This document shows, piece after piece, positions 4,223-26,170 of a stretch of 32,384 bases of DNA. Position numbers and translations under genes: made by a program. The notes under the pieces are model-generated. The model had not been told where the DNA came from, searched no databases, and worked only from the letters and a program-made list of their open reading frames with translations. Origin of the DNA: Alphaproteobacteria bacterium (GTDB lineage Bacteria; Pseudomonadota; Alphaproteobacteria; Rs-D84); contig JAGCYJ010000014.1 of NCBI GenBank assembly GCA_017960855.1, positions 1-32,384 of the forward strand, read 5' to 3'. The stretch's first letter is position 1. Each line of letters begins with the position of its first letter.

Positions 4223-4250
4223 TTGTTTTTTAGATATTTGCCTTTAATAT
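4223..4250 (+). promoter_or_regulatory. Probable promoter of the alpha-2-macroglobulin/pbpC unit
   Basis: TTGTTT (4223-4228) and TAATAT (4245-4250) are 16 bases apart. The -10 overlaps the upstream in-frame ATG at 4249, which argues that translation starts at the later TTG. Confidence 0.5.
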
Positions 4251-4278
4251 GTATTCAAGGACGACGGAGGCAAATCAG

Positions 4279-7200
4279 TTGAAAGGAAAGAAACAATCAC
4301 GTTTTGGACGTAAACTGCGCGTAATTCTGGGCATTTTGTGCGCTGCTTTGGTGGTTGTCACACTGTTTTTTGTTTTCAAAAATCATAAGCAAACGACACG
4401 CGTTTCTTTATATACTTCTGCACCGGCACAAACATCTTTTACAGATGATAATTTCGTAGATTTTACCAATAATTCCGGCACACCCGATATAAATAACAAC
4501 CGAACACTGAACGATGTCCAACCGTTGATAGTGTCGTATAATTGGGAATCTGGACCATATGCGCCGGCATTTAAAACCGATTTAACAAATGCGGAAATTG
4601 CTCAAAATGTAAAGATAAATCCATACGTTCGTGGTACATGGTCGCGCACCAGTCCGAACGCGATTCGTTTTATACCTGAATCAGATTGGCCGGCGGACAC
4701 GCGCTTTACGGTAAAGATTTCACGCAAACTGCTGAATAACGATATTATACCGGACACCCGCAGTACATCTTTTACTTTACCAAAGATGGTTGCCGATATA
4801 AACAGTTTTGATGTCTATCCGGACAAAGCGCATAAACAAAATGTTATTGGCGTTGCCGTTGTTTCATTTAATTATCCAATTGATACGGCCGGGTTCAATA
4901 ATCGTGTGACGGTAAAGCGTGGTTTGCACCGCGTTCCTTTCTCGGTTCGTTTTGATCGGTTCAATCGTACCGCAATCATCACAACTGATCCGATTACGGT
5001 TGATGATTCGTCGCACACATTGCGTCTTAAAATAAATCGCATAGCCGCCGCGACATCCGACACAACCACCAAAAAGGTCAATGCATCAACAACAATTGAA
5101 TCGTCTGATAATTTCTTCAAGATATCTGGGTTAAAATCTATTGCCGCTGATGACGCGCGCGGTAACGCACAACAACTGTTGTTAGTTGATATGACAACGG
5201 CGGTGTCCGACAAAACAAACTGGTCACAATTTATTGAAGCATATTTGTTACCAAAAACAAATGGCGACGAAGAAGACGAAGAATCACATCAGTGGGCAAC
5301 TGATGAAATCAGCGACAGTGTTTTAGCAAAATCAAAGAAACTGACTTTACGTCCGACCGACTTTGCAAACCCAATCGGCGTGTACCAGTATGCGTTTGCA
5401 TATGATGTTTCCGACACAACGCCGCGTTATATATATGTTCGCGTGCGCGCGGGCATTGAATCAAACGCAGGATTTATGTTAAAGAACGGTGTTTCACGTG
5501 TTCTTTCGGTGGCGTATCCAGACAAAACCGTCAAAATCGCTGGAACTGGTGCCCTGCTTTCCTTGGCCGGCGATAAAAAGTTAGGCATTATGGCGCGCGG
5601 TGGTGCCGATACCGCATTTGTGAATCTTTACAAAGTGAAATCCAGTGAAATCAATCACCTTATTACCCAAACATATGGAATATTCTCTTCTAACCTTGAT
5701 TTCAAATCATGGTCGTTTGATGCGTATGATATGGCATCTGTATTTAAAAAGCGCATTGCCTTTGCCGACACCGCAATGAATAAGACAAATTATGCTTCGG
5801 TTGATTTGGGCGACTATTTAGATCGTGGCACGACCGATAAGACCGGTATATTTATAATTCAAACGGGCGCTACTGAATCGGACGCCGATGTCAGCGACCG
5901 CCGTTTAATCTTGCTTACCAATTTGGGAATCATCCGTAAAATAGCGTTGGATGCAACTTCGTCCCTGTTTGTGTCAAACATTGATGACGGATCGCCCGCC
6001 GCAGATGTTGAAATATCTGTACTTGGGCGCAACGGAAACGCAATATGGGCGGGACGCACCGATATGAATGGTTTTGTCACTGTTCCGAAATTCGCATGGG
6101 CTGAATACAGAAACGAACGCGAACCGGTCGCAATTGTTGCGCGCCATGGCGATGATGTTTCGTTTATTCCATATAATTCATATGAAACACATGTTGATTA
6201 TTCTAAATTTGATATTGATGGCACATATTCTGCCGACAATGCACCAATGAACGCCTATCTGTTTTCAGATCGCGGTATTTATCGTCCAGGCGAAAGCGCG
6301 ATTATCGGTGGCATTGTAAAGAACAAAACATTTACTAAACTAAATGGCGTTCCGTTAAAGATGGAAATAACCGATTCTCGCGGACGCACAATATATGATG
6401 AAACTTTTTCAGTTGAATCAGACGGTATGTTTGATATTCGCTTTACCGTATCTGACACTGCAACAATTGGCGAATATACAGCGAACCTGTATTTGTTGAA
6501 TAACAAAAACAAAATACAGAACACAATCGGCACAACGAATTTCCGCGTTCAAGAGTTCACACCGGACAACCTTAAAATCGGCGCGACAATAACTGGGGTC
6601 AGCGAAGAAGGATGGATTTCCCCAGCGAATATGGTTGCAAACATAACTTTGCATAACCTGTTCGGCACACCGGCAACAAATCGTCGTATAACCGCCCACG
6701 CGACACTGCGCCCGATTGATTTTTCGTTCCCAGAATATCGCGAATATATATTCACACCAAACTTTGTGGCGGGTTCAGGGCTGTCGGCAAACGCAGCAAA
6801 CAGAACACAAACATTTTCTGTTGATTTGCCAAATACAAAAACCGATGACAATGGTAATGCGACAATTGATATAAAATTCAACAACAGTATCCCCAGTGGC
6901 ACATATTTAATGACCCTGAACGTCAATGGGTTTGAGGGGGCATCTGGCGTTGGTGTACAGACGACAATTACCGCACGTGTGTCTGATGCGAAATATTTGA
7001 TTGGATATCATGCTAATTCCAATCTGAATTATGTTTCGCGTGATGATGTTCGAACGGTCAAACTGATTGCGCTGGATTCAAACGGTGTGCGCACAAACGC
7101 AAACAAATTGAAAATGCGTACAATACACCGCGAAAACTTGACCAGTTTGATAAAGGATTATAACGATTACTATAAATATCAGACAATTACACGCGATACA

Positions 7201-9999
7201 TTGGTTTCCACAAACACGATTGATGTTTCATCCGAAGGTACCGAAATCAGATTAGACACAACACATGGCGGAACATACTTTGCACAAATAACCGACGAAG
7301 ACGACAATATATTGGCACACATTGAATACTTTGTTGCCGATGCATCTAACACCGCATTGACAACCGATACCAACGCCGAAATGCAGATTAAACTTAATGC
7401 GAACGAATATGCCGCTGGTGATAATATCGCGGTCAGTATTACCGCCCCATATGTTGGGACCGGTTTGATTACAATTGAACGAGACAAGGTTTATGCATAC
7501 AAATGGTTCCACACAACATCAACCTCTTCGGTGCAATATATCACCCTGCCCGACGAGTTTGAAGGTTCTGGTTATGTCAACGTGTCGTTTGTACGCGACA
7601 TAAACAGCAATGATATATTTACCACACCGTACACATACGCGGTTGCGCCTTTCCGCGCCGACACAACGAAACGCGATATATCTGTAAAATTAGAGGCACC
7701 AAAGAACATTACCGATAACAAATTGCCAATTACATACACGACCAACAAAAACGCGCGTATAATGATTTTTGCAATCAATACCGGTATTTTACAGGTCGCA
7801 AAATATGGTATTCCAAATCCATTGGCGCACTTCTTCCCAAAATCCGCATTACAGGTTGAAACTTTCCAGATTTTGTCTCTGTTGTTGCCTGAATACAAAA
7901 TCTTGCGTGAATTCGCGAAAACTGGCGGTGGCGATTTTGAAGAAGCCGACGGCGGAATTGGTGTTGCACTTACCAATCCATTTACCCGCAAAACGAACAA
8001 GCCAGTTGCGTTCTATTCAGGCATAATTGACGCAACTGCGAACGAAGCAAAGACGATTACATTTGATATTCCTGAATATTTCAACGGGGCAATTCGTGTG
8101 TTTGCGGTCGCCACAAATGATACTGCGGTTGGCTCGGCATCAACCGACACCACTGTCCAAAGCCCGATTATTGTTTCCACAACGGCACCAGTTGTTGTCG
8201 CACCAAATGATGTATTTGATATCAACACAGTTATAACCAATATGACCAGTGGCACAACCGCCACCGCCGTTGCAGATGTTAATGCATCTGTGTCACCTAA
8301 CCTTACCATAACAACGGTTCCAAATCAGACATTGGAAATACCGTACGGCACCGAAAAATTATGGTCGTTTGTTGTCCGTGCCGGCGATGCGTTGGGCAAC
8401 GGCGACATTCGTATTAATACGGCGGTACGCGACGGCACAGATGTCGTTCTGTCTGAACGAAACACCCGTTCTTCTTTGTCAGTACGTCCAATAACAACAT
8501 ATGATACGAAAATCAAAATTGGCACATTAAAGTCAACGACAAATATCCGCGGATTCTCGTTTGATATGTACCCTGAATATGCGACAACAAAATTGTACAT
8601 TTCCAACAACGCCGCGATTGTTGCACGCCCATTGTTTGAATACCTAAAGAAATATGAATATTCGTGCACCGAACAGGTTGTATCATGCGCATTACCGTAT
8701 GCCCTGATGCCAACAAATGATATTTTAGGCACAATTTATGCGGAATCTAAATCTGCGATTGATAGTACGATTGCGATGCTTAAGAACCGTCAAAACGACG
8801 ACGGATCGTTCAACTTGTGGGCGGGCGACAACACCGGGCGCGACAATGAATCAGATGCATATTCAGCATACTTGACCGCATATGTCGCACAATTCTTGGA
8901 CATTGCAAAGTCGGCTAACTTTGATGTTCCAAAGGCAATGAATTCGCGCGCCATTGATTACCTGCGAACCTTTGCCGGCACCCATATCAACGACGAATTT
9001 GATGCGGCAACCCATGCGTTTGTTATCTATATCCTGACCAAGAACGGATATATCACAACGGGCTATATTGATGCATTTGAAGAATACGCAAACGAAAATA
9101 TAAAAAATTGGCAGTCAGATTTGATGGGCGCATATATCGCGACATCTTATAAGTTATTGAAACAAGATTCCAAGGCCGACAATTTGATGTCAAAATATCG
9201 CACGTCCAGCCGTTCACGTTTTGAAAATAACATGTTCCGCAATACCGTATCTGATGATGCCATGTATGCGTATTTGAATAGTCGTTTCTTTGGCAACAAA
9301 TCAACCGACATGGGTGAAAATGTTTCCGAATATATCAACGATGGCAATTATACTTCATACACATCTGCATCGGTTATTTTGGCGGTCGCGGGCAACATTG
9401 ATAATAACTACGATTCATCTGAAACATTGTCTGTATTGGCCGACGGTGTTAAATTGGAAACAAAGACATACGATGGCACGACGATTGTTGATATTCCGGT
9501 CGCCACCAAACACATTAGTGTTCGTTGCGACAGTTGCGATCGTAAACATCAACCTTATTACACAACAATTGCCGCCGGATTCCCACGTACCACCGAATCT
9601 AAATCAAATGGGATAGAGGTTTCGCGCGACTATTATGACGACAATGGCAATCGTATAACAACTGCGACCGTTGGCGATACAATCACAGTAAAAATCCATA
9701 TCCGCAGTCGTCGTGGCGATATTATTCCAAACGTTGTTATAACTGATTTGGTGCCAGGCGGATTTATTGCCGGCGAAGCAACTGGCGACATGTCTTTTGC
9801 AGAATCGCGTGAAGATCGCGTATTGATATTCTTGGACGTCACACGCGAAGGTCAAACAATTACATATAATGCCCAGATTGGCGCAGCCGGTTCATTCCAG
9901 ATTCCGCCAATTCACGCCGCGTCTATGTACAATCCACAAATAAATGCGACGGGCAATGTGGGCAAAACATTTACGGTATCAAATGCATTTGCTGAATAA
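4279..9999 (+). CDS. Bacterial alpha-2-macroglobulin family protein (protease trap)
   Basis: This encodes 1906 residues from TTG 4279, preceded by ACGGAGG at eight bases. An in-frame ATG at 4249 lacks a ribosome site and overlaps the likely -10. A basic N-terminus is followed by one membrane span (about 17-35) without a good lipobox, so it is probably anchored in the inner membrane facing the periplasm rather than being a lipoprotein like E. coli YfhM. The MG2 signature DRGIYRPG is at about 664-671. The thioester motif Y-S-C-T-E-Q has its Cys at about 1463, followed by the alpha-helical thioester domain. The C-terminus carries DLVPGGF and E-D-R-V, typical of the bacterial family. Family members bait and covalently trap proteases in the periplasm. 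The next gene, pbpC, is the classical partner. Confidence 0.93.
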   Translation: MKGKKQSRFGRKLRVILGILCAALVVVTLFFVFKNHKQTTRVSLYTSAPAQTSFTDDNFVDFTNNSGTPDINNNRTLNDVQPLIVSYNWESGPYAPAFKTDLTNAEIAQNVKINPYVRGTWSRTSPNAIRFIPESDWPADTRFTVKISRKLLNNDIIPDTRSTSFTLPKMVADINSFDVYPDKAHKQNVIGVAVVSFNYPIDTAGFNNRVTVKRGLHRVPFSVRFDRFNRTAIITTDPITVDDSSHTLRLKINRIAAATSDTTTKKVNASTTIESSDNFFKISGLKSIAADDARGNAQQLLLVDMTTAVSDKTNWSQFIEAYLLPKTNGDEEDEESHQWATDEISDSVLAKSKKLTLRPTDFANPIGVYQYAFAYDVSDTTPRYIYVRVRAGIESNAGFMLKNGVSRVLSVAYPDKTVKIAGTGALLSLAGDKKLGIMARGGADTAFVNLYKVKSSEINHLITQTYGIFSSNLDFKSWSFDAYDMASVFKKRIAFADTAMNKTNYASVDLGDYLDRGTTDKTGIFIIQTGATESDADVSDRRLILLTNLGIIRKIALDATSSLFVSNIDDGSPAADVEISVLGRNGNAIWAGRTDMNGFVTVPKFAWAEYRNEREPVAIVARHGDDVSFIPYNSYETHVDYSKFDIDGTYSADNAPMNAYLFSDRGIYRPGESAIIGGIVKNKTFTKLNGVPLKMEITDSRGRTIYDETFSVESDGMFDIRFTVSDTATIGEYTANLYLLNNKNKIQNTIGTTNFRVQEFTPDNLKIGATITGVSEEGWISPANMVANITLHNLFGTPATNRRITAHATLRPIDFSFPEYREYIFTPNFVAGSGLSANAANRTQTFSVDLPNTKTDDNGNATIDIKFNNSIPSGTYLMTLNVNGFEGASGVGVQTTITARVSDAKYLIGYHANSNLNYVSRDDVRTVKLIALDSNGVRTNANKLKMRTIHRENLTSLIKDYNDYYKYQTITRDTLVSTNTIDVSSEGTEIRLDTTHGGTYFAQITDEDDNILAHIEYFVADASNTALTTDTNAEMQIKLNANEYAAGDNIAVSITAPYVGTGLITIERDKVYAYKWFHTTSTSSVQYITLPDEFEGSGYVNVSFVRDINSNDIFTTPYTYAVAPFRADTTKRDISVKLEAPKNITDNKLPITYTTNKNARIMIFAINTGILQVAKYGIPNPLAHFFPKSALQVETFQILSLLLPEYKILREFAKTGGGDFEEADGGIGVALTNPFTRKTNKPVAFYSGIIDATANEAKTITFDIPEYFNGAIRVFAVATNDTAVGSASTDTTVQSPIIVSTTAPVVVAPNDVFDINTVITNMTSGTTATAVADVNASVSPNLTITTVPNQTLEIPYGTEKLWSFVVRAGDALGNGDIRINTAVRDGTDVVLSERNTRSSLSVRPITTYDTKIKIGTLKSTTNIRGFSFDMYPEYATTKLYISNNAAIVARPLFEYLKKYEYSCTEQVVSCALPYALMPTNDILGTIYAESKSAIDSTIAMLKNRQNDDGSFNLWAGDNTGRDNESDAYSAYLTAYVAQFLDIAKSANFDVPKAMNSRAIDYLRTFAGTHINDEFDAATHAFVIYILTKNGYITTGYIDAFEEYANENIKNWQSDLMGAYIATSYKLLKQDSKADNLMSKYRTSSRSRFENNMFRNTVSDDAMYAYLNSRFFGNKSTDMGENVSEYINDGNYTSYTSASVILAVAGNIDNNYDSSETLSVLADGVKLETKTYDGTTIVDIPVATKHISVRCDSCDRKHQPYYTTIAAGFPRTTESKSNGIEVSRDYYDDNGNRITTATVGDTITVKIHIRSRRGDIIPNVVITDLVPGGFIAGEATGDMSFAESREDRVLIFLDVTREGQTITYNAQIGAAGSFQIPPIHAASMYNPQINATGNVGKTFTVSNAFAE

Positions 10000-12361
10000 T
10001 ATTTGGCGTCGAACATGCGCATACTTTCAACGGCATCAACGGGGCTGGATAATTTTTTGTGTAATTGTTTTGCTGTTTTGGGCTCTGCGGTTATTCCTTA
10101 TGCCACCATTGTTAAGCAATACACACTTTTCCCGCGTTTTTTATGACAGAAACGGCACCCTGCTTCGTATCACATTATCCGCAGATGATAAATACAGAAT
10201 CTATGCACCACTATCTGACATAAGCGACGCCGTAAAACGCGCCACTGTATTATACGAAGACAAACATTTTTATCGTCACATTGGCATCAACCCAGTATCG
10301 TTGATTCGCGCGACTCGGAACTATTTTTCGGGTGCACCCCACCCCGCCGGTGCTTCAACAATCACAATGCAGGTTGCGCGTTTGAAATATGATTTAGACA
10401 CGACACGGCCAATGGGCAAACTGATTCAAATCGCCGCCGCAATTTATATTGACGCTTTTTATTCCAAAGATGACATTTTAACCGCCTACCTGAACCTTGC
10501 GCCATATGGTGGAAATATCGAAGGAATCGCCGCCGCATCGCAAATATATTTTCATAAGAAGCCGTCCGAATTAACCACCATCGAATCTATTACACTGTCC
10601 ACTATTCCACAGAACCCTGTAAAGCGCGGACTGAATACGAACACAGGTTTGCAAAACATGCAACATATGCGCGCTGATTTGGTGCGTCGTTGGATGGACG
10701 AATATCCAGATTCTGATTCGTCGTTGGAAACATTGGCGCAAATGCCGTTGGCGGCGTATGGCACACGTGATTTGCCGTTCTTGGGACCGCACTTTGTAAA
10801 TCGGCAAATGTCCACAAAGTCCGACCATGGTGCCGAAACCACAACACTGGACATCAAATTACAAAACAAGTTGTCCAACCAACTGGCAACCGAAGTCGCC
10901 AAACGAAAAAACATTGGTATTCAAAACGCTGCCGCAATATTGGTGAATTACAAAACGATGGAAGAATTGGCGCATATCGGTTCTGTTGATTATTTTGATA
11001 AAACTATTTTTGGTGAAAATGACGGTGTCGTTGCGCGACGCAGTCCGGGATCAACATTAAAACCATTGATATACGCGGTCGCGGTTGATATGGGGTTGAT
11101 TCATTCTATGACACTTATGAAGGACGCAAAAATCAATTTCGGTGTGTATGCCCCCGAAAATTCAGACAATGAATTCTTTGGTCCCGTTTTGGCACGCGAC
11201 GCGCTGACACACTCGCGTAATATTCCCGCAATCAACCTTGTTCGACAAATCGGCACACACAAGTTTCACAAAGCGTTGTCAGATTGCGGTGTTGCCAATC
11301 TTAAAGCACCGGAACACTATGGTATATCGGTTGCGCTGGGCGGTGCCGAGGTTTCAATGCGCGAACTGGCGGGCATATATGCGGCGTTGGCAAATCTGGG
11401 GCAATATAATGAAATCAAAACAAATACCAAGGCGAAATCTTCAACCCCGACAACGATATTAAGTCCCGAAGCCGCCTTTATTGTTTTGGACATGTTGGCA
11501 CACCAAGCAACGCCCAGTGTAAAAATCCCGTTCGCCAAGGACCAGCCACGGCGCATCACACACATGTGGAAAACAGGCACTTCGTCATCATATCGTGATG
11601 CTTGGACGGCGGGCATTTTTGGCGACTATGTTTTGATTGTATGGGTCGGTAATTTTGATGGCACCCCGAACAACGCGTTCAGTGGTGCGCGCGCCGCCGC
11701 CCCAATCTATTTTTCATTGGCGCAAACTGTTGTTGATTATTACGCGCACAGTGACACACCGGTTGCGGATAATAATTTCCTGCGCGACGACATGAACATT
11801 TCACAAATTGAAATGTGTGATACGGTCGGCGGTCTGGCTGGCGCATATTGTCCGAAAACCGTTATGGCATATTTTATTCCAGGCAAATCCCCAATTACCG
11901 AATCGTCCGTTTATCGCGCTATTCCAGTTGATAATAATACGGGTCTGCGCGCTTGCTCCGCCGACCCGAAAACAACGCACATGGCGGTATATGAGTTTTG
12001 GGATGCCGAATACTTGGATATGTTCAAACGCGCCGGTATAAAACGCAACACCCCACCGCCATACGTGGGAAATTGCGATTTAAGTAAAATAACTGAATCA
12101 GAAAATGAACCAATAATCACATCACCCGCCGACAACACACGAATTGTCATTACCGACAATCGTGATGTCGCAACCGTTTCTTTTTCCGCAATTTCAGATA
12201 CCCCGGATGCCAAGATATTTTTATTCATGGATGATGCGGCAATCGGACACATAAAGTCCGGCGAAACAATTTCGCATGATGTCCCAATGGGTGAACATAC
12301 CATACGCGCCATTGACGAATTAGGTGTTGGCACATCAAATAATTTCAGTGTAATCAAGTAA
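9983..12361 (+). CDS. pbpC: Penicillin-binding protein 1C
   Basis: This encodes 792 residues of a bifunctional peptidoglycan synthase. A short cytoplasmic tail and one membrane span (about 20-38) precede the GT51 transglycosylase domain with EDKHFYRH (Glu92) and GASTITMQ (123-130). The transpeptidase domain shows S357-T-L-K360, S411-R-N and K530-T-G-T-S. The last ~95 residues are a beta-rich domain like BiPBP_C, characteristic of PBP1C rather than PBP1A/1B. The start is uncertain: ATG 9944 and 9956 are also in frame, but all three have weak ribosome sites, and 9983 gives the shortest overlap (17 bases) with the preceding gene, suggesting translational coupling. In E. coli the orthologue also neighbours an alpha-2-macroglobulin gene, where repair of cell wall after breach has been proposed. 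Confidence 0.95.
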   Translation: MHLLNNIWRRTCAYFQRHQRGWIIFCVIVLLFWALRLFLMPPLLSNTHFSRVFYDRNGTLLRITLSADDKYRIYAPLSDISDAVKRATVLYEDKHFYRHIGINPVSLIRATRNYFSGAPHPAGASTITMQVARLKYDLDTTRPMGKLIQIAAAIYIDAFYSKDDILTAYLNLAPYGGNIEGIAAASQIYFHKKPSELTTIESITLSTIPQNPVKRGLNTNTGLQNMQHMRADLVRRWMDEYPDSDSSLETLAQMPLAAYGTRDLPFLGPHFVNRQMSTKSDHGAETTTLDIKLQNKLSNQLATEVAKRKNIGIQNAAAILVNYKTMEELAHIGSVDYFDKTIFGENDGVVARRSPGSTLKPLIYAVAVDMGLIHSMTLMKDAKINFGVYAPENSDNEFFGPVLARDALTHSRNIPAINLVRQIGTHKFHKALSDCGVANLKAPEHYGISVALGGAEVSMRELAGIYAALANLGQYNEIKTNTKAKSSTPTTILSPEAAFIVLDMLAHQATPSVKIPFAKDQPRRITHMWKTGTSSSYRDAWTAGIFGDYVLIVWVGNFDGTPNNAFSGARAAAPIYFSLAQTVVDYYAHSDTPVADNNFLRDDMNISQIEMCDTVGGLAGAYCPKTVMAYFIPGKSPITESSVYRAIPVDNNTGLRACSADPKTTHMAVYEFWDAEYLDMFKRAGIKRNTPPPYVGNCDLSKITESENEPIITSPADNTRIVITDNRDVATVSFSAISDTPDAKIFLFMDDAAIGHIKSGETISHDVPMGEHTIRAIDELGVGTSNNFSVIK

Positions 12362-12367
12362 TAAAGA

Positions 12368-12392
12368 ACCGCCCAAACGGGCGGTCTTTTTA
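12368..12392 (+). terminator. Rho-independent terminator between convergent pbpC and the OMP operon
   Basis: ACCGCCC-AAAC-GGGCGGT followed by CTTTTTATT lies seven bases after the pbpC stop. It overlaps the end of the convergent gene and has A/T flanks on both sides, so it could act in both directions. Confidence 0.85.
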
Positions 12393-13253
12393 TTCCGCGT
12401 CAGGTTTTACAATATCGTATTTCATAATATAACTAAACGACAAGCCCATCATAAAATTACTGCCATAGACATCAACACCACGCGCCTTGGCACGACGATA
12501 TTGAACATATGGACCAAATGTGAAATTGCCCCACAGATTTGTATCCATACGCGCAATCGCGCTGAAATCGCGTTCTAAATCAGTTGGCACATATTCCGAA
12601 TATGACAGGTATTCACGATAATAACCGTTGGTGGAAAACTTTACCCCTTCGCGAAGTTCGTATTCCAAACGCCATCCGGCCTCTATCGCAGATTTATTTA
12701 CCTTGTGTTCAGAATAAGTGAAATCATATTCATATACGCCCGCCAAATATAAACTTTTTATAATCGGGTGATCAAACAACGCCAAACCCGCCAATCCACG
12801 CACAACATTTTGACGTGGCGCATCACCAGTTGCTTCAAATTCTGTTTCATATACCGCACGCGCCATTGGACCGAACTTTAAATCACCCCAATGCCAACGC
12901 GCCCACGCCAAATCAGATGATAACAAGATTTTATCTGCGTTTTCATTGACGACTTTTTCGCCATCATATGGTTTCAGCGTTGTTCGGCCATATTCCATAA
13001 ACAAACTGTTGTCCCATTTCAAATCATCAACACGATATTCCAACGCGGTATCCCATACGCCCTTGAAATATTCTTGGTCATCCGCCTTTAATGCCTGAAT
13101 CGGTGAATCTGAATACGCCGCCGCATGACGCACATCTGTTTTGGACCAATCAAGCCCAATGCGCCGAATGTCCAGCGTCAATCTGTTATCGTCTGCCGCA
13201 TAAGACGCAAACGGCATCAACGTCGCCAATAATAACAACGATACTTTTTTCAC
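12390..13253 (-). CDS. Exported beta-barrel-like protein of unknown function
   Basis: This encodes 287 residues from a GTG start with GGGGG four bases upstream. A clear signal peptide (hydrophobic core LLLLATLMPF, cleavage near Y-A-A) is followed by a sequence made almost entirely of amphipathic strands with frequent Tyr/Trp/Phe, for example Y-L-A-G-V-Y-E-Y-D-F and F-G-P-Y-V-Q-Y-R-R. This suggests an outer-membrane or periplasmic beta barrel. The C-terminus ends K-P-D-A-E, not the terminal aromatic residue usual for barrels inserted by BAM, but an aromatic strand (MGLSFSYIMKYDI) lies just before. It is the third gene of a minus-strand run of three envelope proteins, separated from the second by about 28 bases. 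No specific family recognised. Confidence 0.75.
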   Translation of the reverse strand: MKKVSLLLLATLMPFASYAADDNRLTLDIRRIGLDWSKTDVRHAAAYSDSPIQALKADDQEYFKGVWDTALEYRVDDLKWDNSLFMEYGRTTLKPYDGEKVVNENADKILLSSDLAWARWHWGDLKFGPMARAVYETEFEATGDAPRQNVVRGLAGLALFDHPIIKSLYLAGVYEYDFTYSEHKVNKSAIEAGWRLEYELREGVKFSTNGYYREYLSYSEYVPTDLERDFSAIARMDTNLWGNFTFGPYVQYRRAKARGVDVYGSNFMMGLSFSYIMKYDIVKPDAE

Positions 13254-13281
13254 GTTTCCCCCTTTCCCTTATGTTTGATTA

Positions 13282-13887
13282 TTATTTCCAGACACGCATA
13301 AAGCCATCATCCGCAGCGGTTTTCCAACCCGCGTTGCGCAACGCGATTGTGACCGAAGAACGCGCAGATGTCGGCACATCAATTGTGGCAATATTTCCGA
13401 CAATTTGTTTCGTGGAAAAATCAACCCGTTCAGAACGCGCAATAGATTGCAATTGAGCCCAATCAGAAATCGGATTGCTTAAAGTCACGTGCATTGTAAA
13501 TGCACTTACGACACTGCCATCTGACAACCAATTATAAACATTATTTTCCGCCATCCATTTACGCGCCGCATTACGATCCACCGTCATTGTAATGTTTGCG
13601 GAATATGTTGTATCAGAAATCTGTTCGCCATCAATACTGGTTTCTGAAATCAGATTTGCCAAATCGGCACTCTTTGCATTGCGAATCGCTGACGACAGTT
13701 GATCAGATGATGCATACGGGCGCAATTTATCAATCAAAATCTGACGCCGCGCATCATTTATCGCCATTGTTTTCGCGGTTGATGATGTATCACTGGTCAT
13801 GCGCACAGATGCGGTTCCGACCAAATCAGCAGCCGTCGCCGCACACGCAATAAACGCGCCACAAAATGCAAATAGTATTTTTTTCAT
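13282..13887 (-). CDS. Small periplasmic protein of unknown function
   Basis: This encodes 201 residues from ATG 13887 (MKKILFAF), chosen because a standard signal peptide begins there (cleavage after A-T-A-A). An in-frame ATG 36 bases upstream would spoil that signal. The mature part starts with a strand (VGTASVRM) and then an Ala-rich helix T-A-K-T-M-A-I-N-D-A-R-R-Q-I-L, a pattern reminiscent of periplasmic domains such as the FlgT N-terminal or LPP20-type folds; this is a weak resemblance. No cysteines are seen in the mature part. There is no ribosome site, and a candidate promoter puts the transcript start at or next to the ATG. It lies 42 bases after the omptin-like gene. Confidence 0.75.
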   Translation of the reverse strand: MKKILFAFCGAFIACAATAADLVGTASVRMTSDTSSTAKTMAINDARRQILIDKLRPYASSDQLSSAIRNAKSADLANLISETSIDGEQISDTTYSANITMTVDRNAARKWMAENNVYNWLSDGSVVSAFTMHVTLSNPISDWAQLQSIARSERVDFSTKQIVGNIATIDVPTSARSSVTIALRNAGWKTAADDGFMRVWK

Positions 13888-13894
13888 ATTGCTT

Positions 13895-13923
13895 ATACTA
13901 ACCCAACTGAAACATTCTTGCAA
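13895..13923 (-). promoter_or_regulatory. Candidate internal promoter giving a near-leaderless mRNA
   Basis: Minus-strand TTGCAA (13918-13923) and TAGTAT (13895-13900) are 17 bases apart. Only seven bases separate the -10 from the ATG at 13887, and no Shine-Dalgarno sequence is present. Confidence 0.4.
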
Positions 13924-13929
13924 GATTTA

Positions 13930-15468
13930 TCAGAAGCGTGCTTTCAATCCAACGCGAATACCCAACGCACGATAGAAAGAATCTATTTCGCCGCCGACTT
14001 TGCACACCCAACCAGAACAAGATTTTTCAAGTTCCTTTATGCTGATTGCGGTTGGATCACCCGAAACACCAGCGATTTGACCCAACATATATTTTTCAGC
14101 ATCCGCTTCATCGTGTCCTTGTGCCACCGTCCATTGTTTCCATTGATCCAGCAATTCGTTATATGTGTTTGTGTAATATGTACCATTCAGATAAGTTTCT
14201 GCATCTGCACCACTTACATGATAGTAATCATATGTGACACCGACGGACAACGATACATTGTTTGAAATTGCAGTTGTCCAATCTGCCGCCAAACCTAAAT
14301 GAAACGCCGAAAACATTCCCGCAGAATCAGATACACTCTTTGGATGTTGCCAATCAAAACGATACGGTTGGTCGCCCTCGGCACTATATCCAGGTAAGCC
14401 CAGTTCAACACGTGCATCAACCGCATTGTTTTCATTTATGTCATACAACATATCCAACGCCAAATATGGACCAGACCATGCAACCTCGTACGAATGGCTG
14501 GTTCCCGGCTGTTGATAATAATATGTTCCCGCCGTATCAAGATATTCAACACCGTCTGCAACATCAACATGTCCAGTTATGCTGTCGCGCCAAATAACCT
14601 GATTCGTTCCGTTGTCATAATGAACGATAACAACAGGATCGCATTGAACTTCATCACTGCCCGGCACTGTGAAACATGCTGCTGTATCAACCGACAAGCC
14701 GTAATTCTTTTTCGTTTCCAGTTTATATTTCAAATAACGATAACCAACAGATGGCGTAATCTTTAAACTGCCCCACTGCATAATCCCCGGCAAGCCAAAT
14801 CCGACATTGAATCCCATCATGCTGCCACCTTCGCTGGTGCCGACCGACAAAGCATGACCGATTTGTTCCCCAATCACATCATTAGATTCATCAACCCATT
14901 GGGTTATAAAGAAACCGCCATTACTAATATCGTCGTCAACCATGGACGATTCGCCCCACTGCATACCATATCTGAATCCGGCCTCTATCTGACCCTTGGT
15001 ATTGCCCATATCAAAGACATACCGTCCGTTCAAATCTAGCACATTCCACGCAACATCATTGTAATGCAACTTGGACGCAGATTCCTTCATCTCCATTTCC
15101 CACAGCGCGTTTTCATGCGACAAACTGCCGTCCAAATAAAAACCATTTTTAATTCCACTGGAACTTTTGGACGAAGAAGAAGTTTTTGTTGTTTGTGTTG
15201 TTGTTTGCACAACCTGTGTTTGACGCTGACCAACAACAGTACCACTTGGTGCATTATATCTTACACTGGAATAACCGGTGGTTGTGTATCCCGTCGGACG
15301 CGTATACGGTGTTGCGGTGTTTGCGGTTGTATATGATGCGGTTTGACCATAACGTGCCTGGGGTGACTGATATGTTGCACCCGTATAGTACGTTCCCGCG
15401 GCATTTGCCAGCACCGGCAACATGGCAAAAAGCGAACAATTCATTAAAAATAATGTTGTTTTCTTCAT
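13930..15468 (-). CDS. Omptin-like outer-membrane beta-barrel protein
   Basis: This encodes 512 residues. The signal peptide ends near A-N-A-A (about 24). A Tyr/Thr/Gln/Ser-rich disordered linker (25-105) leads into a barrel domain that begins GFYLDGSLSHE and ends G-L-K-A-R-F with the terminal Phe of BAM substrates. Order and local patterns resemble OmpT-type proteases: S-K-L-H-Y-N-D-V-A-W, then MVDDD matching the OmpT MVDQD Asp pair, a nearby V-D-E-S, then S-V-G-Y-R-Y. The second OmpT catalytic pair (Asp-x-His) is not evident where expected (Y-R-F-D-W-Q-H). The match is from memory of OmpT, not an alignment. The barrel assignment is strong; omptin relationship moderate; protease activity doubtful. 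AAGGAAA precedes the ATG. It heads the three-gene minus-strand run. Confidence 0.8.
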   Translation of the reverse strand: MKKTTLFLMNCSLFAMLPVLANAAGTYYTGATYQSPQARYGQTASYTTANTATPYTRPTGYTTTGYSSVRYNAPSGTVVGQRQTQVVQTTTQTTKTSSSSKSSSGIKNGFYLDGSLSHENALWEMEMKESASKLHYNDVAWNVLDLNGRYVFDMGNTKGQIEAGFRYGMQWGESSMVDDDISNGGFFITQWVDESNDVIGEQIGHALSVGTSEGGSMMGFNVGFGLPGIMQWGSLKITPSVGYRYLKYKLETKKNYGLSVDTAACFTVPGSDEVQCDPVVIVHYDNGTNQVIWRDSITGHVDVADGVEYLDTAGTYYYQQPGTSHSYEVAWSGPYLALDMLYDINENNAVDARVELGLPGYSAEGDQPYRFDWQHPKSVSDSAGMFSAFHLGLAADWTTAISNNVSLSVGVTYDYYHVSGADAETYLNGTYYTNTYNELLDQWKQWTVAQGHDEADAEKYMLGQIAGVSGDPTAISIKELEKSCSGWVCKVGGEIDSFYRALGIRVGLKARF

Positions 15469-15557: not shown

Positions 15558-15642
15558 GCGACCATGGCGGAATTGGTATACGCGCAGCACTAAGGATGCT
15601 GTGGAGAAATCCTTGGGGGTTCAAGTCCCCCTGGTCGCACCA
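15558..15642 (+). tRNA. tRNA-Leu, anticodon AAG
   Basis: All tRNA arms can be drawn. The acceptor GCGACCA pairs with TGGTCGC, followed by discriminator A and an encoded CCA. The D stem is GCG/CGC with GG in the loop. The anticodon stem CAGCA/TGCTG encloses loop CTAAGGA, giving anticodon AAG at 15592-15594 with T33 and G37. The variable arm (GGA-GAAA-TCC) makes it class II, and the T arm is GGGGG-TTCAAGT-CCCCC. Size, long variable arm, A73 and G37 fit leucine. Adenine at the wobble position is unusual in bacteria outside tRNA-Arg(ACG). Confidence 0.95.
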
Positions 15643-15714
15643 AAATTATAAAAAATCCCCATATTTTATGCTTGCCCGGCATTTTAAAATTTTGCTAACA
15701 TTGAATTGCAGAGA

Positions 15715-18705
15715 ATGAAAAAATTTGGGCTGATTTTGGCTGGGTGCCTTGCGTTTGTTGGGTTCTACAACGCGCACGCAGATGACATCGGCGACGCCGT
15801 GCGCGCCGCGGTTCGTCGTGATACAAACACGACGACGGTCACAACACGCCAACGTTCCGATTCCGCGACCAATTCCACAACCACACGCAATTCGGCGACC
15901 AAAACATCGGCTGTTGTCAATCGTACTGCGACAAATACCCGTAATAACAATGTTGTAAATCGCGCCGCCGAACCAATAATCGGCACACCAACAAATGTTG
16001 TGGCACGCACTACGACTGCGCCGCGCACCACTGGCAATGCAACATCATCTGTAAAAACCCGTTCAACAACCCAACCTATCCAGGTACGTTCAACCACGCG
16101 CAAAACACCAACCCGCACCAATGTGTCCCGCGCGGCAACCACAATTGCTACCCGCGAAGACATATTGAACCGCAGTTATTCCAAGTGCAAAGAAGTACTT
16201 ACTGAATGCATGGATGAATTCTGTGCAAACAAAGATTCCCAGTTAAAGCGTTGCGCTTGTTCGGCACGTATTCACGATTTTGATAAAATCAAAAAGCAGT
16301 TGGCCAATGTTGATGAAAAAATGTTGGACTTTAACCAACGGTTGCTGACGGTCAGCATGGACGAAAAAGATGTTGCCGCGATAAACATCGCAACCGAAGG
16401 GGAAAAGGCGTTTTACGACACGGTGGATGCATCTGAATCTAAACGAACATTGGATGCCATTGCTAAAAAGTTAAACACCAATTTTGATAAAAGTAATTTT
16501 TCCAGCAGTTTAGGCACCGTTCTGTCTTGGTCGCTGGATATGGACAGTGCTTTTGACACCGTTGATTCATTGGCCGGCGTATCAACCGCCGCGAAATCTG
16601 GCACCGCGTTGTATTCGGCGGCACTGCCGGTATGTCGTGAAATGGCGGCCGAAGTTTGTTCAGATGATGATTTAGCACTGGCGGAAAGCGGATATCAAAT
16701 CCTTATTGATCGTGATTGTGACACCGTTGAAAAAACATACAAAACCGCCGCCGAACAGGCACGAAACAAGGTTCTGGAAAGTTCCGCACTTTTGGATATT
16801 TCGCGTCTGAATGTTTATCAAAAAAATAATGCCGACGACATTTTGACCTGCAAAAAGAAAATGCTGACCATGCTGACCGATTCGACGGTGTGCGGATCTG
16901 ATTTGGGTAAATGTTTAGATATAACTGGACAGTACATTGACCCATCGACAGGCGAGGCATTTCTTAGTGCTGAACTGTCCAATCTTAGTGATTTGATTTC
17001 CCGCCCCGAAGAAAATCAAACCTGGGCGCGCGCACCGGGGAACGCGGTTTTTGTGTCATTCTTGAATTCCAAGAAAAAGTTTTTGGAATCGGCAATGGAT
17101 AATTGCCAAGATATTGCCGACACCGTGTGGAATGCCTTTATCGAAGATGCATTGTCGCAAATCAAGATTGCCCAGTTGCGCAAATTGGAAGAAGTGCGCC
17201 AATCATGCACAACGCTTGTCGGACAATGCCTGACCAATGCCGCCGAAACGCTTGAGGCATTTGATGCCCGCGCCCTATCCACATTTGGTGTTGCCGCCGA
17301 CACAACCGCCAAGGCAATGTGTTCAAATGTTTTGTCTTCTTGTACAACATTGCTGGAAATAACCGACGACAAGCAAGAATGGTATGCTGGTATGACTGGC
17401 ATTCAAACCGATATAACGTTTGACACAATCAAGCACACTTGTCGCGAAGTTGGACGTGCATGTGTCATCCAGGTATGTACATCAACATCGGGTAACTTCG
17501 GTCTGTGCGAAGATATTGACTTGTCCGTCAACCGTAAATCCATCATCAACCACACTGCTTGCTGGAACGAAGTGTTGAATTGCGTGGGCAGCGCCGGCGA
17601 AGATACAATCAACGCAATATTCGCCCAGAACGGATTTTATAACACCGTCACTGACCCAGACACACAAATAACAACCATTGTCCCAGACGAATATGCGTTG
17701 TATAAAAAAACTTATGGTGACGACTACCTTACCCCAACCATAACGATCAGCGACGACCCAGTAGAACAAAGTCAAAGGACCTCACAATGCGTATCACCGG
17801 GCTCCGCAGAAACTGCCACGCAATATTGTGTGTATGATATATGTTATGAAGAATGCGAACATTACGCGTACACAGACACAAATACTTGTCGTGTTTGCCG
17901 TTTGGCGGAAAGTATTTGGGGTAATTGTGAAGCAGAACCTATTACAAGATTGGAAGAAGAAAACATGCACAATCGCATCAAAAAACCAGCGGATTACGAA
18001 AACAACAATACAATATTGTACTGGTTTGCACAAAACACCAATACTCAAGATAGATCCGACAGTTGTCGCGATACAACATGTCCAGTTGGGTATTTCCCAT
18101 CCTTGGACGAAACTACAAACACGATTATGTGCCTTGACAGCAACAAGGTTAAAATTGACTCCCTTAACAGAATGTGTGATGCATCTGTTTACCAACGGGT
18201 TGCAACCCAACCAATCATCACCAATTGTTGTCAAAGTAAAGTTCTGGATTATGGCAAGGGTTGTTGTGCATCTAAAACAACAACTGGACAAAATCCTGAA
18301 TTACCGACCAGATGTATGCCCGTCAATGGCGCCACTATGGTTGCAACATTTACGATTCCTGATACATCATCCGATACCTATTATTCGGTTGATACATTAT
18401 ATGCGCTATATTGCTATGGTAATTTCAATACAGAAACCCTTTATTGCGATGGCAGATTTTTCATTGTTGATGCAAGTCCTTCGGCAAGGGTGGGAATACA
18501 CTATATGGATCCACATTACAACGACACCACACAACCGTCGCAATATGTGTGCGAATATTTTGAGGAAAATCAAACCACCAAATACATTCGGAAATATGAA
18601 ACCGTTGGTTGGGGATGGTACAATGGTGACACCCTGTTCAATGATGGCAACGACCAATATGGTCCAAACGCTTGGACCGTATCATTCGGTGGTTGCGGAA
18701 ACTAA
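15715..18705 (+). CDS. Large secreted cysteine-rich protein, unknown function
   Basis: This encodes 996 residues from ATG 15715. An upstream in-frame TTG at 15706 is possible, but the signal peptide begins at MKKFGLILAGC. Cleavage is probably at A-H-A before D-D-I; an internal L-A-G-C could instead be a lipobox with a very short hydrophobic region. Residues 30-145 are disordered, Thr/Asn/Arg rich and basic. Six exact C-x6-C pairs follow at about 158/165, 393/400, 498/505, 536/543, 576/583 and 616/623, the last four spaced 38-40 residues apart, as if helical repeats were clamped by disulphides. The C-terminal third has CxxC-type clusters (for example C-R-V-C and N-C-C-Q) and strand-rich sequence. 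It is the first gene of a likely operon, 18 bases before a lipoprotein. No family recognised. Confidence 0.85.
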   Translation: MKKFGLILAGCLAFVGFYNAHADDIGDAVRAAVRRDTNTTTVTTRQRSDSATNSTTTRNSATKTSAVVNRTATNTRNNNVVNRAAEPIIGTPTNVVARTTTAPRTTGNATSSVKTRSTTQPIQVRSTTRKTPTRTNVSRAATTIATREDILNRSYSKCKEVLTECMDEFCANKDSQLKRCACSARIHDFDKIKKQLANVDEKMLDFNQRLLTVSMDEKDVAAINIATEGEKAFYDTVDASESKRTLDAIAKKLNTNFDKSNFSSSLGTVLSWSLDMDSAFDTVDSLAGVSTAAKSGTALYSAALPVCREMAAEVCSDDDLALAESGYQILIDRDCDTVEKTYKTAAEQARNKVLESSALLDISRLNVYQKNNADDILTCKKKMLTMLTDSTVCGSDLGKCLDITGQYIDPSTGEAFLSAELSNLSDLISRPEENQTWARAPGNAVFVSFLNSKKKFLESAMDNCQDIADTVWNAFIEDALSQIKIAQLRKLEEVRQSCTTLVGQCLTNAAETLEAFDARALSTFGVAADTTAKAMCSNVLSSCTTLLEITDDKQEWYAGMTGIQTDITFDTIKHTCREVGRACVIQVCTSTSGNFGLCEDIDLSVNRKSIINHTACWNEVLNCVGSAGEDTINAIFAQNGFYNTVTDPDTQITTIVPDEYALYKKTYGDDYLTPTITISDDPVEQSQRTSQCVSPGSAETATQYCVYDICYEECEHYAYTDTNTCRVCRLAESIWGNCEAEPITRLEEENMHNRIKKPADYENNNTILYWFAQNTNTQDRSDSCRDTTCPVGYFPSLDETTNTIMCLDSNKVKIDSLNRMCDASVYQRVATQPIITNCCQSKVLDYGKGCCASKTTTGQNPELPTRCMPVNGATMVATFTIPDTSSDTYYSVDTLYALYCYGNFNTETLYCDGRFFIVDASPSARVGIHYMDPHYNDTTQPSQYVCEYFEENQTTKYIRKYETVGWGWYNGDTLFNDGNDQYGPNAWTVSFGGCGN

Positions 18706-20430: not shown

Positions 20431-20948
20431 AACAACTTGATTGTTTTGATTGCGGCGGCGATGGCGGGCATTTGTTCGTCGTCGATACGCCCCAGCACCC
20501 AATCCGCCGGATCGATTTGTAAATTGTAATCGCGCGGGTGCCCAATTCCAATTCTTACGCGGCGATAGTCCGCGCCAACCGCGGCATCAATTGACTTTAT
20601 GCCGTTGTGCCCCGCACTGCCCCCGCCGACTTTCTCTTTGACCGCGCCGACTTTTACATCCATATCGTCGTGAATCACGATTATGTTCTCAAGTGGCACC
20701 TTGTAAAACCGCGCCAGCGCACCAACCGCATTCCCCGACAAATTCATAAAGGTCATTGGTCGCGCAAAAATAACCTTTTGTCCCCCGGCAATCGTGTGAT
20801 AAGTCATTGCTTCGTGTTCAGATTTCCACGTCGCATCATCACCCGCCAAATATTCCACCGCCATAAACCCGACATTGTGTCGAGTGCGCGCATATTCAGC
20901 CCCCGGATTGCCCAGTCCAACGACTAAAATGGGTTTATTTTCTTGCAT
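20427..20948 (-). CDS. pth: Peptidyl-tRNA hydrolase
   Basis: This encodes 173 residues. The enzyme releases tRNA from prematurely dropped peptidyl-tRNA in the cytoplasm. All recognised active-site positions are present: Asn14 in V-G-L-G-N-P-G, His24 in R-H-N-V-G-F, Asn69 in T-F-M-N-L-S-G, Asp94 in I-H-D-D-M-D, and Asn115 in G-H-N-G-I. It is about twenty residues shorter than the E. coli enzyme, ending at K-T-I-K-L-F without the usual tail. The stop overlaps that of the convergent cysteine-rich gene. Upstream, a small outer-membrane protein gene starts divergently about 46 bases away. The ribosome site is weak (AGAGATG). Confidence 0.97.
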   Translation of the reverse strand: MQENKPILVVGLGNPGAEYARTRHNVGFMAVEYLAGDDATWKSEHEAMTYHTIAGGQKVIFARPMTFMNLSGNAVGALARFYKVPLENIIVIHDDMDVKVGAVKEKVGGGSAGHNGIKSIDAAVGADYRRVRIGIGHPRDYNLQIDPADWVLGRIDDEQMPAIAAAIKTIKLF

Positions 20949-20994
20949 ATCAACATCTCTTTTTCTACTATATTATCATACAAAAGGGGAAAAA

Positions 20995-21555
20995 ATGAAA
21001 TTAAATTACGCATCTTTTTTAACCGCTGCTATTTTAGCGATTGCGACAACAAATGCTAGATCTGAAATGTTGTATGATCTCTATGCTGGTGGTTCACTGG
21101 GTTTGGGCGGAATATCCATGTATTCCGAAGAAGACGAATTCGATGGCGACGATTGGTCGGCACGGTCATATGGTGCTGTGTTAGGTATTGATTTGCCGGT
21201 TGTTCGGTTCGAAGCGGAATATGATTATCTGGCATCTAGCAAGATTGATATGCAGACAGTAATGGGCAACGCATATGTAAAGTTCATGGGTGAAGTTGTC
21301 GCAAATCCATACATTGGTGTGGGTGTTGGTGCGGTGCTTGACTATAAATATGACCACGACCGCTTTGACATTGATACAGAAACGACTATCGCGTATCAAG
21401 GTATGTTGGGTGTGACATTTAATCTGCCTGCTATGCCATTAAAAATTGATTTAGAAGGTCGCCTGATGTATATGCCCGAAGTGTACGAATGGGAACACGA
21501 GGCGATTGACGCAATGTATTATGACGCGCGCCTTAAATTGCGTTTTGTATTCTAA
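20995..21555 (+). CDS. Small outer-membrane beta-barrel protein
   Basis: This encodes 186 residues from ATG 20995, which has AAAAGGGGA just before it and begins a signal peptide (A-A-I-L-A-I-A-T-T-N-A-R-S). A longer in-frame extension upstream would run into pth and is not supported. The mature sequence alternates polar and hydrophobic residues in about eight strands, with G-G-S-L-G-L-G-G, I-G-V-G-V-G-A and the C-terminal L-K-L-R-F-V-F ending in Phe, as in OmpA/opacity-type porin-like barrels. Long loops are acidic (E-E-D-E-F-D-G-D-D). polA starts 17 bases after the stop, so the two may be cotranscribed. Role unknown. Confidence 0.83.
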   Translation: MKLNYASFLTAAILAIATTNARSEMLYDLYAGGSLGLGGISMYSEEDEFDGDDWSARSYGAVLGIDLPVVRFEAEYDYLASSKIDMQTVMGNAYVKFMGEVVANPYIGVGVGAVLDYKYDHDRFDIDTETTIAYQGMLGVTFNLPAMPLKIDLEGRLMYMPEVYEWEHEAIDAMYYDARLKLRFVF

Positions 21556-24400: not shown

Positions 24401-25576
24401 TTATAAGTCCTGCCACCTACAAATACCGTTTTCACACATGTTGCCCATGCCACTATTCCTACAATCTTGGTTACTGCTACATGTGCCGATAAGTACGGGC
24501 GTTACAGGGGCAAACTTCCACCCAACAAAGGTCTTACCTGGCTTGGTTGCTGCCTTGACAGGTGTTGTAATATCGCCGTCGTATGTAACACTGGTTGCAT
24601 ACGGATTATCTTCGCCATCAACATCCGACCAGTTAATTGTAATTGTATTCGCCGCACAGACGGCACCAGAGGATGGCACGGACATTAACAATGCCGTTTG
24701 TCCCAACACGGTAGCAGGATTATCGCTACCGTTCCAAAACCTTGCTAAATACCCGCCACATTCCGACTCACATGTAGTCATACAATCACCGCCATCTTCC
24801 CATTGACCATCAACAAACACCCATGGGGCCGTGAACGATTGGGTTGAACCACCGTTTGGTGTATAACTTTCCAAACGACACCAGCAATTTCTTGCCTGCA
24901 GACTGCCTGTCTCGTCTGTTACATTATTAGCTGTTTCTACATCTTCTGGTGTATTTGCATAGGCTACTTGCCGGTTATAATCGCCCATTGTACTACAACG
25001 CGCATGCCCCCTGATTACTCCCTTGTTTCCAAAATCTACAAGAAACGCATAATCATCGGTCAATCCATACGATTCCGGCGAGATAATATTCCACTGCATA
25101 TCACGCCAGTCATCATGGTCTTTAAAAATGTAATCACTTGCAACACTATTCCCGATTATCGTTAATAAATCTGGTACACCGGATTCGGTATGATAACCAT
25201 CTTCACAGGCCGTTGCACCACAAGTATCTGCACCGTTGCCGTAATAGTCATTGCCGGAAACCGCCGTTGCATGTGCAATCGCCGACACCGCACAGGCCTT
25301 ATAACAATTTGTGTCCGCACTGGAACCAACCGCAGAATTTGGATAACCAGATGGGCAAGAATGCTGACCCGACGAGTCACAATAACTATTCGCTGGGCAA
25401 TCGTCGTATTCCGCAATTGCATCTACATAATCTTCATACACACCCATATTGTCATATGTTGCCGCGTTGTCATATGTTTTGTTTTCCAGCATATACCCAT
25501 CGTTTGGGAAGTTTTCTGCGAACGCAGGACACGCAACCCATATTGCCAATAAACTTACTGGTATGATTTTTTTCAT
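24401..25576 (-). CDS. Secreted cysteine-rich protein (paralogue A of tandem pair)
   Basis: This encodes 391 residues with AAGGAAA before the ATG. The signal peptide is cleaved near A-F-A before E-N-F. Residues about 22-55 share the block F-P-N-D-G-Y-M-L-E-N-K-T-Y-D-N-A-A with the neighbouring upstream gene. Then come D-C-P-A-N-S-Y-C-D-S-S-G and S-C-P-S-G-Y, the same cysteine module as at 20.2 kb. A middle region has H-A-R-C-S-T-M and C-W-C-R-L. Near 325-360, T-I-T-I-N-W leading to D-I-T-T-P-V-K and K-P-G-K-T-F-V-G-W-K-F resembles a Listeria-Bacteroides repeat. It ends in a four-cysteine knot-like tail (G-T-C to G-I-C-R-W). It probably shares a transcript with the next gene, 18 bases upstream. 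Surface role inferred. Confidence 0.82.
   Translation of the reverse strand: MKKIIPVSLLAIWVACPAFAENFPNDGYMLENKTYDNAATYDNMGVYEDYVDAIAEYDDCPANSYCDSSGQHSCPSGYPNSAVGSSADTNCYKACAVSAIAHATAVSGNDYYGNGADTCGATACEDGYHTESGVPDLLTIIGNSVASDYIFKDHDDWRDMQWNIISPESYGLTDDYAFLVDFGNKGVIRGHARCSTMGDYNRQVAYANTPEDVETANNVTDETGSLQARNCWCRLESYTPNGGSTQSFTAPWVFVDGQWEDGGDCMTTCESECGGYLARFWNGSDNPATVLGQTALLMSVPSSGAVCAANTITINWSDVDGEDNPYATSVTYDGDITTPVKAATKPGKTFVGWKFAPVTPVLIGTCSSNQDCRNSGMGNMCENGICRWQDL
25413..25525. repeat. Copy 1 of a 113-base block shared by the tandem paralogues
   Basis: This block aligns without gaps to 26007-26119 and encodes the shared mature N-terminus. Both copies contain TATGTTTTGTTTTCCA; most differences elsewhere look synonymous or fall in the D/Y-rich end. 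Confidence 0.75.
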
Positions 25577-25594: not shown

Positions 25595-26170
25595 TTAGTC
25601 CGCCGCCGTCACAGTGTCATCATATATTGACCAACTGGTTTCACTATTGCCGACCTTTAATTGCAATTCCGTACCAACATTCATCGGAACACTCATCGTT
25701 GTCATATTCGCGTAAAATACACCATCATCAAACTGGAATCCCAATGATTGTGTTGTTCGTGGTGATGCGCGCAGATAAACAACATTTTCGCCCACGTGCA
25801 AAACATGACCACATTGTGCCGATTCCCACATGCCCGCCGGCGCAAACAGACCCGAATCACATGCCGTTATACCACCGTCCGATTCGTCACTGTACACATA
25901 TTCGCCACCCGGACAATAACTGTTTTCTGGACAGGTCGCACATTCTTCTGAACCATGAGGCAGATACTCGCCACGCGCACAAGTGAATTCAGAATCAACA
26001 TACTGTGCAATCGCATCAACCGATCCGCTGTATATCCCCATATTGCCGTATATCGCCGCATTGTCGTATGTTTTGTTTTCCAACATATATCCATCATTTG
26101 GGAACCCTTCGGCAAACGCCGAACCCACGACAATCAATGTTGCCATGCTGATTAACACGACTTTTTGCAT
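25595..26170 (-). CDS. Secreted cysteine-rich protein (paralogue B of tandem pair)
   Basis: This encodes 191 residues with GGGGGAA before the ATG. The signal peptide (V-V-L-I-S-M-A-T-L-I-V-V-G) is cleaved near A-F-A before E-G-F. The next ~35 residues are nearly the same as in the downstream gene (F-P-N-D-G-Y-M-L-E-N-K-T-Y-D-N-A-A). A cysteine module follows: C-A-T-C-P-E-N-S-Y-C-P-G-G, with later C-D-S-G-L-F-A-P-A-G and S-A-Q-C. The final ~70 residues have no cysteine and look strand-rich (V-Y-L-R-A-S-P, L-Q-L-K-V-G-N), perhaps a small beta domain. The C-terminus ends at V-T-A-A-D. It is the first gene of a two-gene unit with its own extended -10 promoter. Function unknown. Confidence 0.8.
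   Translation of the reverse strand: MQKVVLISMATLIVVGSAFAEGFPNDGYMLENKTYDNAAIYGNMGIYSGSVDAIAQYVDSEFTCARGEYLPHGSEECATCPENSYCPGGEYVYSDESDGGITACDSGLFAPAGMWESAQCGHVLHVGENVVYLRASPRTTQSLGFQFDDGVFYANMTTMSVPMNVGTELQLKVGNSETSWSIYDDTVTAAD
26007..26119. repeat. Copy 2 of a 113-base block shared by the tandem paralogues
   Basis: This is the partner of 25413-25525, in the same orientation and about 594 bases apart. It points to a local duplication of the first part of the gene followed by divergence or domain swap downstream. Confidence 0.75.

Follow-up and report, generated by a model that had tools for sequence, protein, structure and literature searches.

The protein encoded at 15715-18705 (+) of the window, i.e. 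the whole stretch of 32,384 nucleotides analysed here, is, judged by sequence and tree, one of about 11 ancient paralogues of an exported protein family specific to the bacterial order Rs-D84. With a probability of about 0.5, we read this family as a set of envelope proteins that fold oxidatively and are specific to the order, and whose inferred function would be to attach to partners or to give the envelope structure. The window makes up an entire contig of a 0.65-Mb genome (60% complete) from a relative of Candidatus Enterousia, a group of gut Alphaproteobacteria. Enterousia belongs to the order Rs-D84, whose genomes are reduced and whose glycolysis is incomplete; these bacteria are inferred to live in dependence on partners (PMC12306168).

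Sequence layout of the window protein

The open reading frame at 15706-18705 (+) gives 999 aa from a TTG at 15706 and 996 aa from an ATG at 15715. The ATG is the more likely start on the alignment, in which close orthologues start at the same Met; residue numbers here follow the TTG numbering, which is that of the first-pass annotation plus 3. A Sec-type signal peptide (15715-15780, +) is predicted from sequence and alignment, with the cleavage site placed by eye after AHA at residue 25, upholding the earlier description of a secreted protein. A lipoprotein reading of this signal peptide was rejected, as its Cys (Cys14) is not conserved among orthologues.

The signal peptide is followed by a basic disordered segment rich in Thr, Arg, Ser, Asn and Ala (15796-16176, +; residues about 31-157), which is common to family members and corresponds to the Thr/Asn/Arg-rich region described earlier, with a net charge of +15 over residues about 30-158. 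In most members the core is preceded by a basic Thr/Ala/Ser/Arg segment, which a scan of 429 ORFs showed to be nearly restricted to the family. Beside one family gene lies a gene for a 1596-aa exported protein (L124:4268-9055, +) that has an Arg/Thr-rich N-terminal segment without the CMDxFC core.

The family signature, C161-x6-C168-M-D-x-F-C173-x9-C183-x-C185-S (16177-16260, +), is retained by the paralogues and opens a conserved helical Cys core (16177-17595, +; residues about 158-630) containing 22 of the 43 Cys residues of the protein. Four C-x6-C pairs, C501/508, C539/546, C579/586 and C619/626 (17206-17583, +), lie toward the end of this core. Beyond it lies the C-terminal region (17623-18702, +; residues 640-999), which is variable, rich in Cys and, at its end, rich in beta structure. 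Its 20 Cys bear out the separate Cys-rich C-terminus of the first-pass annotation, and its identity between orthologues is about 32%, versus about 64% in the core.

Fixed C-x6-C spacing and variable distances between pairs

Exact counting confirmed that the window protein has six C-x6-C pairs (at 161, 396, 501, 539, 579 and 619), the last four of which are spaced nearly regularly at intervals of 38, 40 and 40 residues, as had been noted. Shuffling the window sequence alone gave at least six pairs with p ~0.015. The family makes a stronger case: the +7 spacings 161-168, 396-403, 501-508 and 579-586 are invariant wherever both Cys are present (110 to 150 sequences), which rules out a chance origin of the pairs. 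The distances between pairs vary widely across the family, from 26 to 62 residues (501 to 539), 29 to 85 (539 to 579) and 40 to 120 (579 to 619). Since the +7 spacings are fixed and the inter-pair distances are not, it is the pairs that are structural, not the 38-40 period. The period of about 40 residues proposed from the single sequence therefore did not survive the comparison with related sequences, where the 38-40 spacing is not kept. Nor did profile slices show significant internal homology in hhalign (best pairwise E 0.018, probability ~1%).

The signature takes the form C-x6-C-[ML]-[DN]-x-[FIY]-C-x(8-10)-C-x-C in the 24 members found in the regions fetched from three genomes (G000, G003 and G050). 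The window protein and the other orthogroups examined all show what defines the Rs-D84 CMDxFC family, i.e. C-x6-C-M-D-x-F/I-C ... C-x-C after an Arg/Thr-rich segment, together with a conserved Cys core. The core cysteines are retained in nearly all of 50 same-genus members examined, and the identity of paralogues to the window protein is only 17-26%.

An exported family restricted to the order Rs-D84

A profile of the family matched 141 of 142 Rs-D84 genomes, more weakly in families f2 to f6, and protein-level matches were found in 28 of 40 relatives. Four of 289 genomes sampled across the class matched, all of them Rs-D84, and two of 398 across the phylum matched convincingly, both Enterousia; no convincing family member was found in the other Proteobacteria of these two samples. 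A match outside the order (G485, E 9e-4, C-terminal part only) was judged to be noise. Among named relatives, the orthologue occurs in Alphaproteobacteria of gut and rumen, with Candidatus Enterousia species among them, and in a few records labelled Rickettsiales.

Family counts, which derive from searches and fetched regions, are high within single genomes. The incomplete genome of the window holds eight matches to the window protein, i.e. seven besides its own, and most same-genus genomes have 10-14. In G050, a single contig of 1,001,484 bases, the 11 family genes together encode about 8,900 aa and so occupy nearly 3% of the sequence. About 11 orthogroups, mostly with one copy per genome and deeper than the genus splits, were resolved in a tree built with members from five same-genus genomes and others. 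The duplications are old, because members from other genera of the family interleave in the tree, and by this tree one-to-one orthogroups are maintained across the genus. The first-pass annotation had thus described the layout accurately; the family context of about 11 paralogues, spread over the whole order, was absent from a reading of one sequence.

It had also known no family with this layout, and the searches agree: neither the window protein nor its paralogues had a significant full-length match in Pfam, NCBIfam or PHROG. The only type of library match in the paralogues was List_Bact repeats at two C-termini. A match to GltJ (E 0.78) was dismissed as low-complexity noise, and the best hit of a PDB sequence profile search, clumping factor at E 0.31, was not significant. 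As far as the searched profile libraries show, the family is undescribed as such.

Predicted structure

An AlphaFold2 model of residues 150-999, built with 83 sequences, reached moderate confidence (mean pLDDT 78.6, pTM 0.54). It has helices in its first part, one at or beside each C-x6-C pair, in line with the earlier suggestion of Cys at i and i+7 within helices, and beta strands toward the end. The C-terminal part modelled alone (632-999) gave a pLDDT of 85 and a pTM of 0.70. Foldseek returned nothing at E<=0.001 against the PDB for either model, or against viral structures for the C-terminal model. With VIA-align, the best match of the helical part had Z 6.8 at an rmsd of 23.6, a score short of what is expected between helical proteins, and that of the C-terminus had Z 2.6. 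A weak or absent structural match is not proof of a new fold.

Cysteine patterns consistent with disulphide-clamped hairpins

Paralogues have additional Cys at 389 and 460, which create further C-x6-C pairs, 382/389 and 460/467. Among 149 scored sequences, both additional Cys are present in 28, neither in 107, only C389 in 14 and only C460 in none; counted by cluster, the figures are 10 with both, two with only C389, none with only C460 and six with neither (Fisher p 0.0015). Cys 586 and 619 are likewise concordant in 114 of 121 sequences. Counted from the first core Cys on, 137 of 153 members have an even Cys total, as do 50 of the 59 that do not belong to the orthogroup of the window protein; orthogroup L131 reaches only 9 of 17. 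In a comparison set of other, crudely predicted secreted ORFs, 12 of 27 totals were even and 15 odd. In all of these parity and co-loss counts, the sequences are related by descent and hence phylogenetically non-independent.

The invariant C-x6-C spacings, the joint gain and loss of 389 and 460 and the mostly even Cys totals are together what disulphide-clamped hairpins would be expected to show. The simplest reading of the sequences is that antiparallel helix pairs would be joined by two bonds each (i to j+7 and i+7 to j), so the four pairs from C501 to C626 may form two such double-disulphide hairpins. The predicted bonds would be C501-C546, C508-C539, C579-C626, C586-C619 and C382-C467, joined by C389-C460 in members that have these two Cys. 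Of the disulphide-clamped helical repeats first suggested, the clamped helices fit the pattern of co-loss, parity and pairing, while the repeats find no internal homology to stand on. Many intermolecular bonds are disfavoured because the Cys totals are even.

A putative oxidation route

A membrane-anchored DsbA-like protein is present as one copy in each of 14 genomes searched, with a CPYC site read in G000. DsbB and VKOR models had no match in the same 14 genomes. Next to genes of one family orthogroup lies a gene for a small hydrophobic, polytopic-looking protein with CPVC right after its first hydrophobic segment (L123:11534-12067, -; L131:9043-9549, -); in both G000 and G050 it adjoins the gene of that orthogroup. 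This protein was found in 52 of 59 Rs-D84 genomes and in three of 199 other genomes of the phylum, one of these matches being strong. Judged by position and motif, it is a candidate replacement for DsbB or VKOR. The oxidising route as a whole is putative, as neither DsbB nor VKOR was detected and the bacteria are anaerobic.

Genomic surroundings

Divergently transcribed from the window gene are three genes for exported proteins (12390-15468, -), namely a Pom-type outer-membrane protein (13930-15468, PF17251) and proteins of 213 and 287 aa. On the other side, a PF13505-like outer-membrane beta-barrel protein (20875-21555, +) is encoded between pth and polA. In a comparison of 47 related loci, each 20 kb or longer, the Pom-type protein is kept in 47, the two further exported proteins in 46 and 45, pth in 44, and the beta-barrel protein and polA in 45 each. 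This conservation may merely mirror generally slow rearrangement. Elsewhere, in G000, G003 and G050, three paralogues form a cluster adjoined by genes for an MscS channel and/or MotA/MotB-OmpA-like proteins. From the gene order, these neighbours would place the family in an envelope context and leave the compartment unfixed.

Several other features of these loci were recorded. A tRNA-Leu gene with anticodon AAG lies immediately upstream of the family gene (15558-15642, +); an A34 Leu anticodon is unusual among bacteria. Also in the window are an exported subtilase (2321-4192, +; PF00082), whose C-terminal region ends like an outer-membrane strand and which is possibly an autotransporter, and a bacterial alpha-2-macroglobulin gene overlapping one for a PbpC-type penicillin-binding protein (4249-12361, +). 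Two tandem Cys-rich exported proteins (24401-25576 and 25595-26170, -) have the N-terminal stretch FPNDGYMLENKTYDNAA in common and differ in their tails. Beside one orthogroup, a conserved gene pair (L122:7590-10840, L119:9150-12580 and L128:3761-7029) encodes a protein of about 351 aa with N-terminal membrane segments and a Cys-rich exported protein of 699-759 aa from a different conserved family.

Proposed mechanism and alternative explanations

Our preferred reading, in which the family is a set of order-specific envelope proteins that fold oxidatively, would work as follows. After Sec export, the DsbA-like oxidase would form the disulphides, and the C-x6-C helices would pair as antiparallel hairpins with two disulphides each, giving a rigid stalk. 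With lower confidence, the basic segment may tether the protein flexibly within or across the envelope, the variable C-terminal region may be a binding head with different partners for each paralogue, and the paralogues may each be a fixed and distinct subunit or receptor in the outer envelope. The set would then help these metabolically dependent bacteria to attach to partners or to stabilise their envelope by disulphides. These two uses are the most likely, and the main rival is a periplasmic scaffold.

According to that rival, the proteins are not at the surface and act as periplasmic scaffolds or assembly factors for an envelope machine, e.g. the MotA/MotB-OmpA-like pair and the MscS channel. 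Helical stalks fit such a role, stable one-to-one orthogroups are what machine parts would show, and a MotB/OmpA-like gene, MscS or a MotA-like gene does stand beside the three-paralogue cluster; such neighbours occur, however, at only one of about nine loci, and the fast evolution of the C-terminal part is more like that of outward-facing heads, so that we regard a scaffold as a real but minority possibility. The solenoid reading of the first-pass annotation, in which tandem disulphide-clamped helical units of about 40 residues resemble Sel1-like or Hcp-type proteins, draws on the 38/40/40 intervals, the helix predicted at each pair and the disulphide-tethered helical repeats of 36-38 residues in Helicobacter Hcp (PMC3851747). 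We consider it unlikely, given that no Sel1 or TPR family of Pfam matched at E 1, Foldseek gave no solenoid match at E<=0.001, the slices lack internal homology and the inter-pair spacing is not conserved.

It is also improbable that the cysteines bind metal, iron-sulphur or heme groups instead of forming disulphides. The dense CxC, CxxxxC and CC motifs and the anaerobic lifestyle (PMC12306168) would suit such cofactors, yet export by a signal peptide, even Cys totals with pairwise co-loss and the presence of a DsbA-like oxidase do not, and Pfam and NCBIfam gave no cytochrome or ferredoxin family. Lowest in our estimation stands the idea that the proteins are secreted as effectors or toxins aimed at host or prey cells: the orthogroups are ancient and fixed, without the gain and loss typical of effectors, no toxin domain appeared in the Pfam and NCBIfam scans and no dedicated secretion system was identified adjoining the family genes, although export, rapidly evolving C-termini and a multigene family in bacteria presumed to be symbionts or parasites (PMC12306168) are what this explanation would predict.

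Comparison with known systems

Helicobacter Hcp proteins share with the Rs-D84 family export, an alpha-helical make-up, disulphide-tethered helices (here inferred), several paralogues and host-associated carriers (PMC3851747, PMC4597128). Hcp proteins are Sel1-like solenoids, whereas the Rs-D84 family has neither a Sel1 match nor an internal repeat; no Pfam family matched the window protein at E up to 1, and none of Sel1 type (PF08238) was found in the paralogues. The chlamydial outer membrane complex, whose members include OmcA, OmcB and Pmps and are linked by disulphides, resembles the family in consisting of Cys-rich exported envelope proteins, in its paralogous set, in its reduced-genome, partner-dependent bacteria and in the presence of DsbA (PMC6752827). 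That complex is cross-linked between proteins, whereas the even Cys totals of the Rs-D84 family suggest mainly internal disulphides; a further difference is that Rs-D84 genomes additionally encode MreB, RodA and MrdA (PMC12306168). No homology to the OmcA, OmcB or Pmp families was detected by Pfam or NCBIfam. By analogy, the family may work like Hcp or the chlamydial complex, and it is homologous to neither as far as tested.

CHCH and small Tim proteins, with twin CX9C and CX3C motifs, have antiparallel helices and two disulphides from two Cys pairs. The inferred hairpins of the Rs-D84 family would be braced in the same way, but with a spacing of 7 rather than 10 or 4, and with many Cys pairs along a single long protein that bacteria export; Pfam and PDB profile searches gave no sequence match to CHCH or small Tim proteins.

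Significance for the order

The CMDxFC motif provides a clean marker of the family, and the family lends itself to testing a disulphide pathway in which neither DsbB nor VKOR is recognised. Rs-D84 bacteria, which are uncultured, inhabit the guts of many animals, lack standard sugar, amino acid and peptide transporters and are thought to depend on partners (PMC12306168). Because the family is exported, was not found outside the order and takes up nearly 3% of the 1-Mb genome, it is a prime candidate for the partnership machinery. Tentatively, and with the odds in our view against it, a whole partner-dependent gut order may have evolved an envelope or attachment apparatus of its own, made of many subunits and braced by disulphides, from about 11 paralogues of a fold without known relatives, served by a DsbA-like oxidase whose CPVC membrane partner would be neither DsbB nor VKOR.
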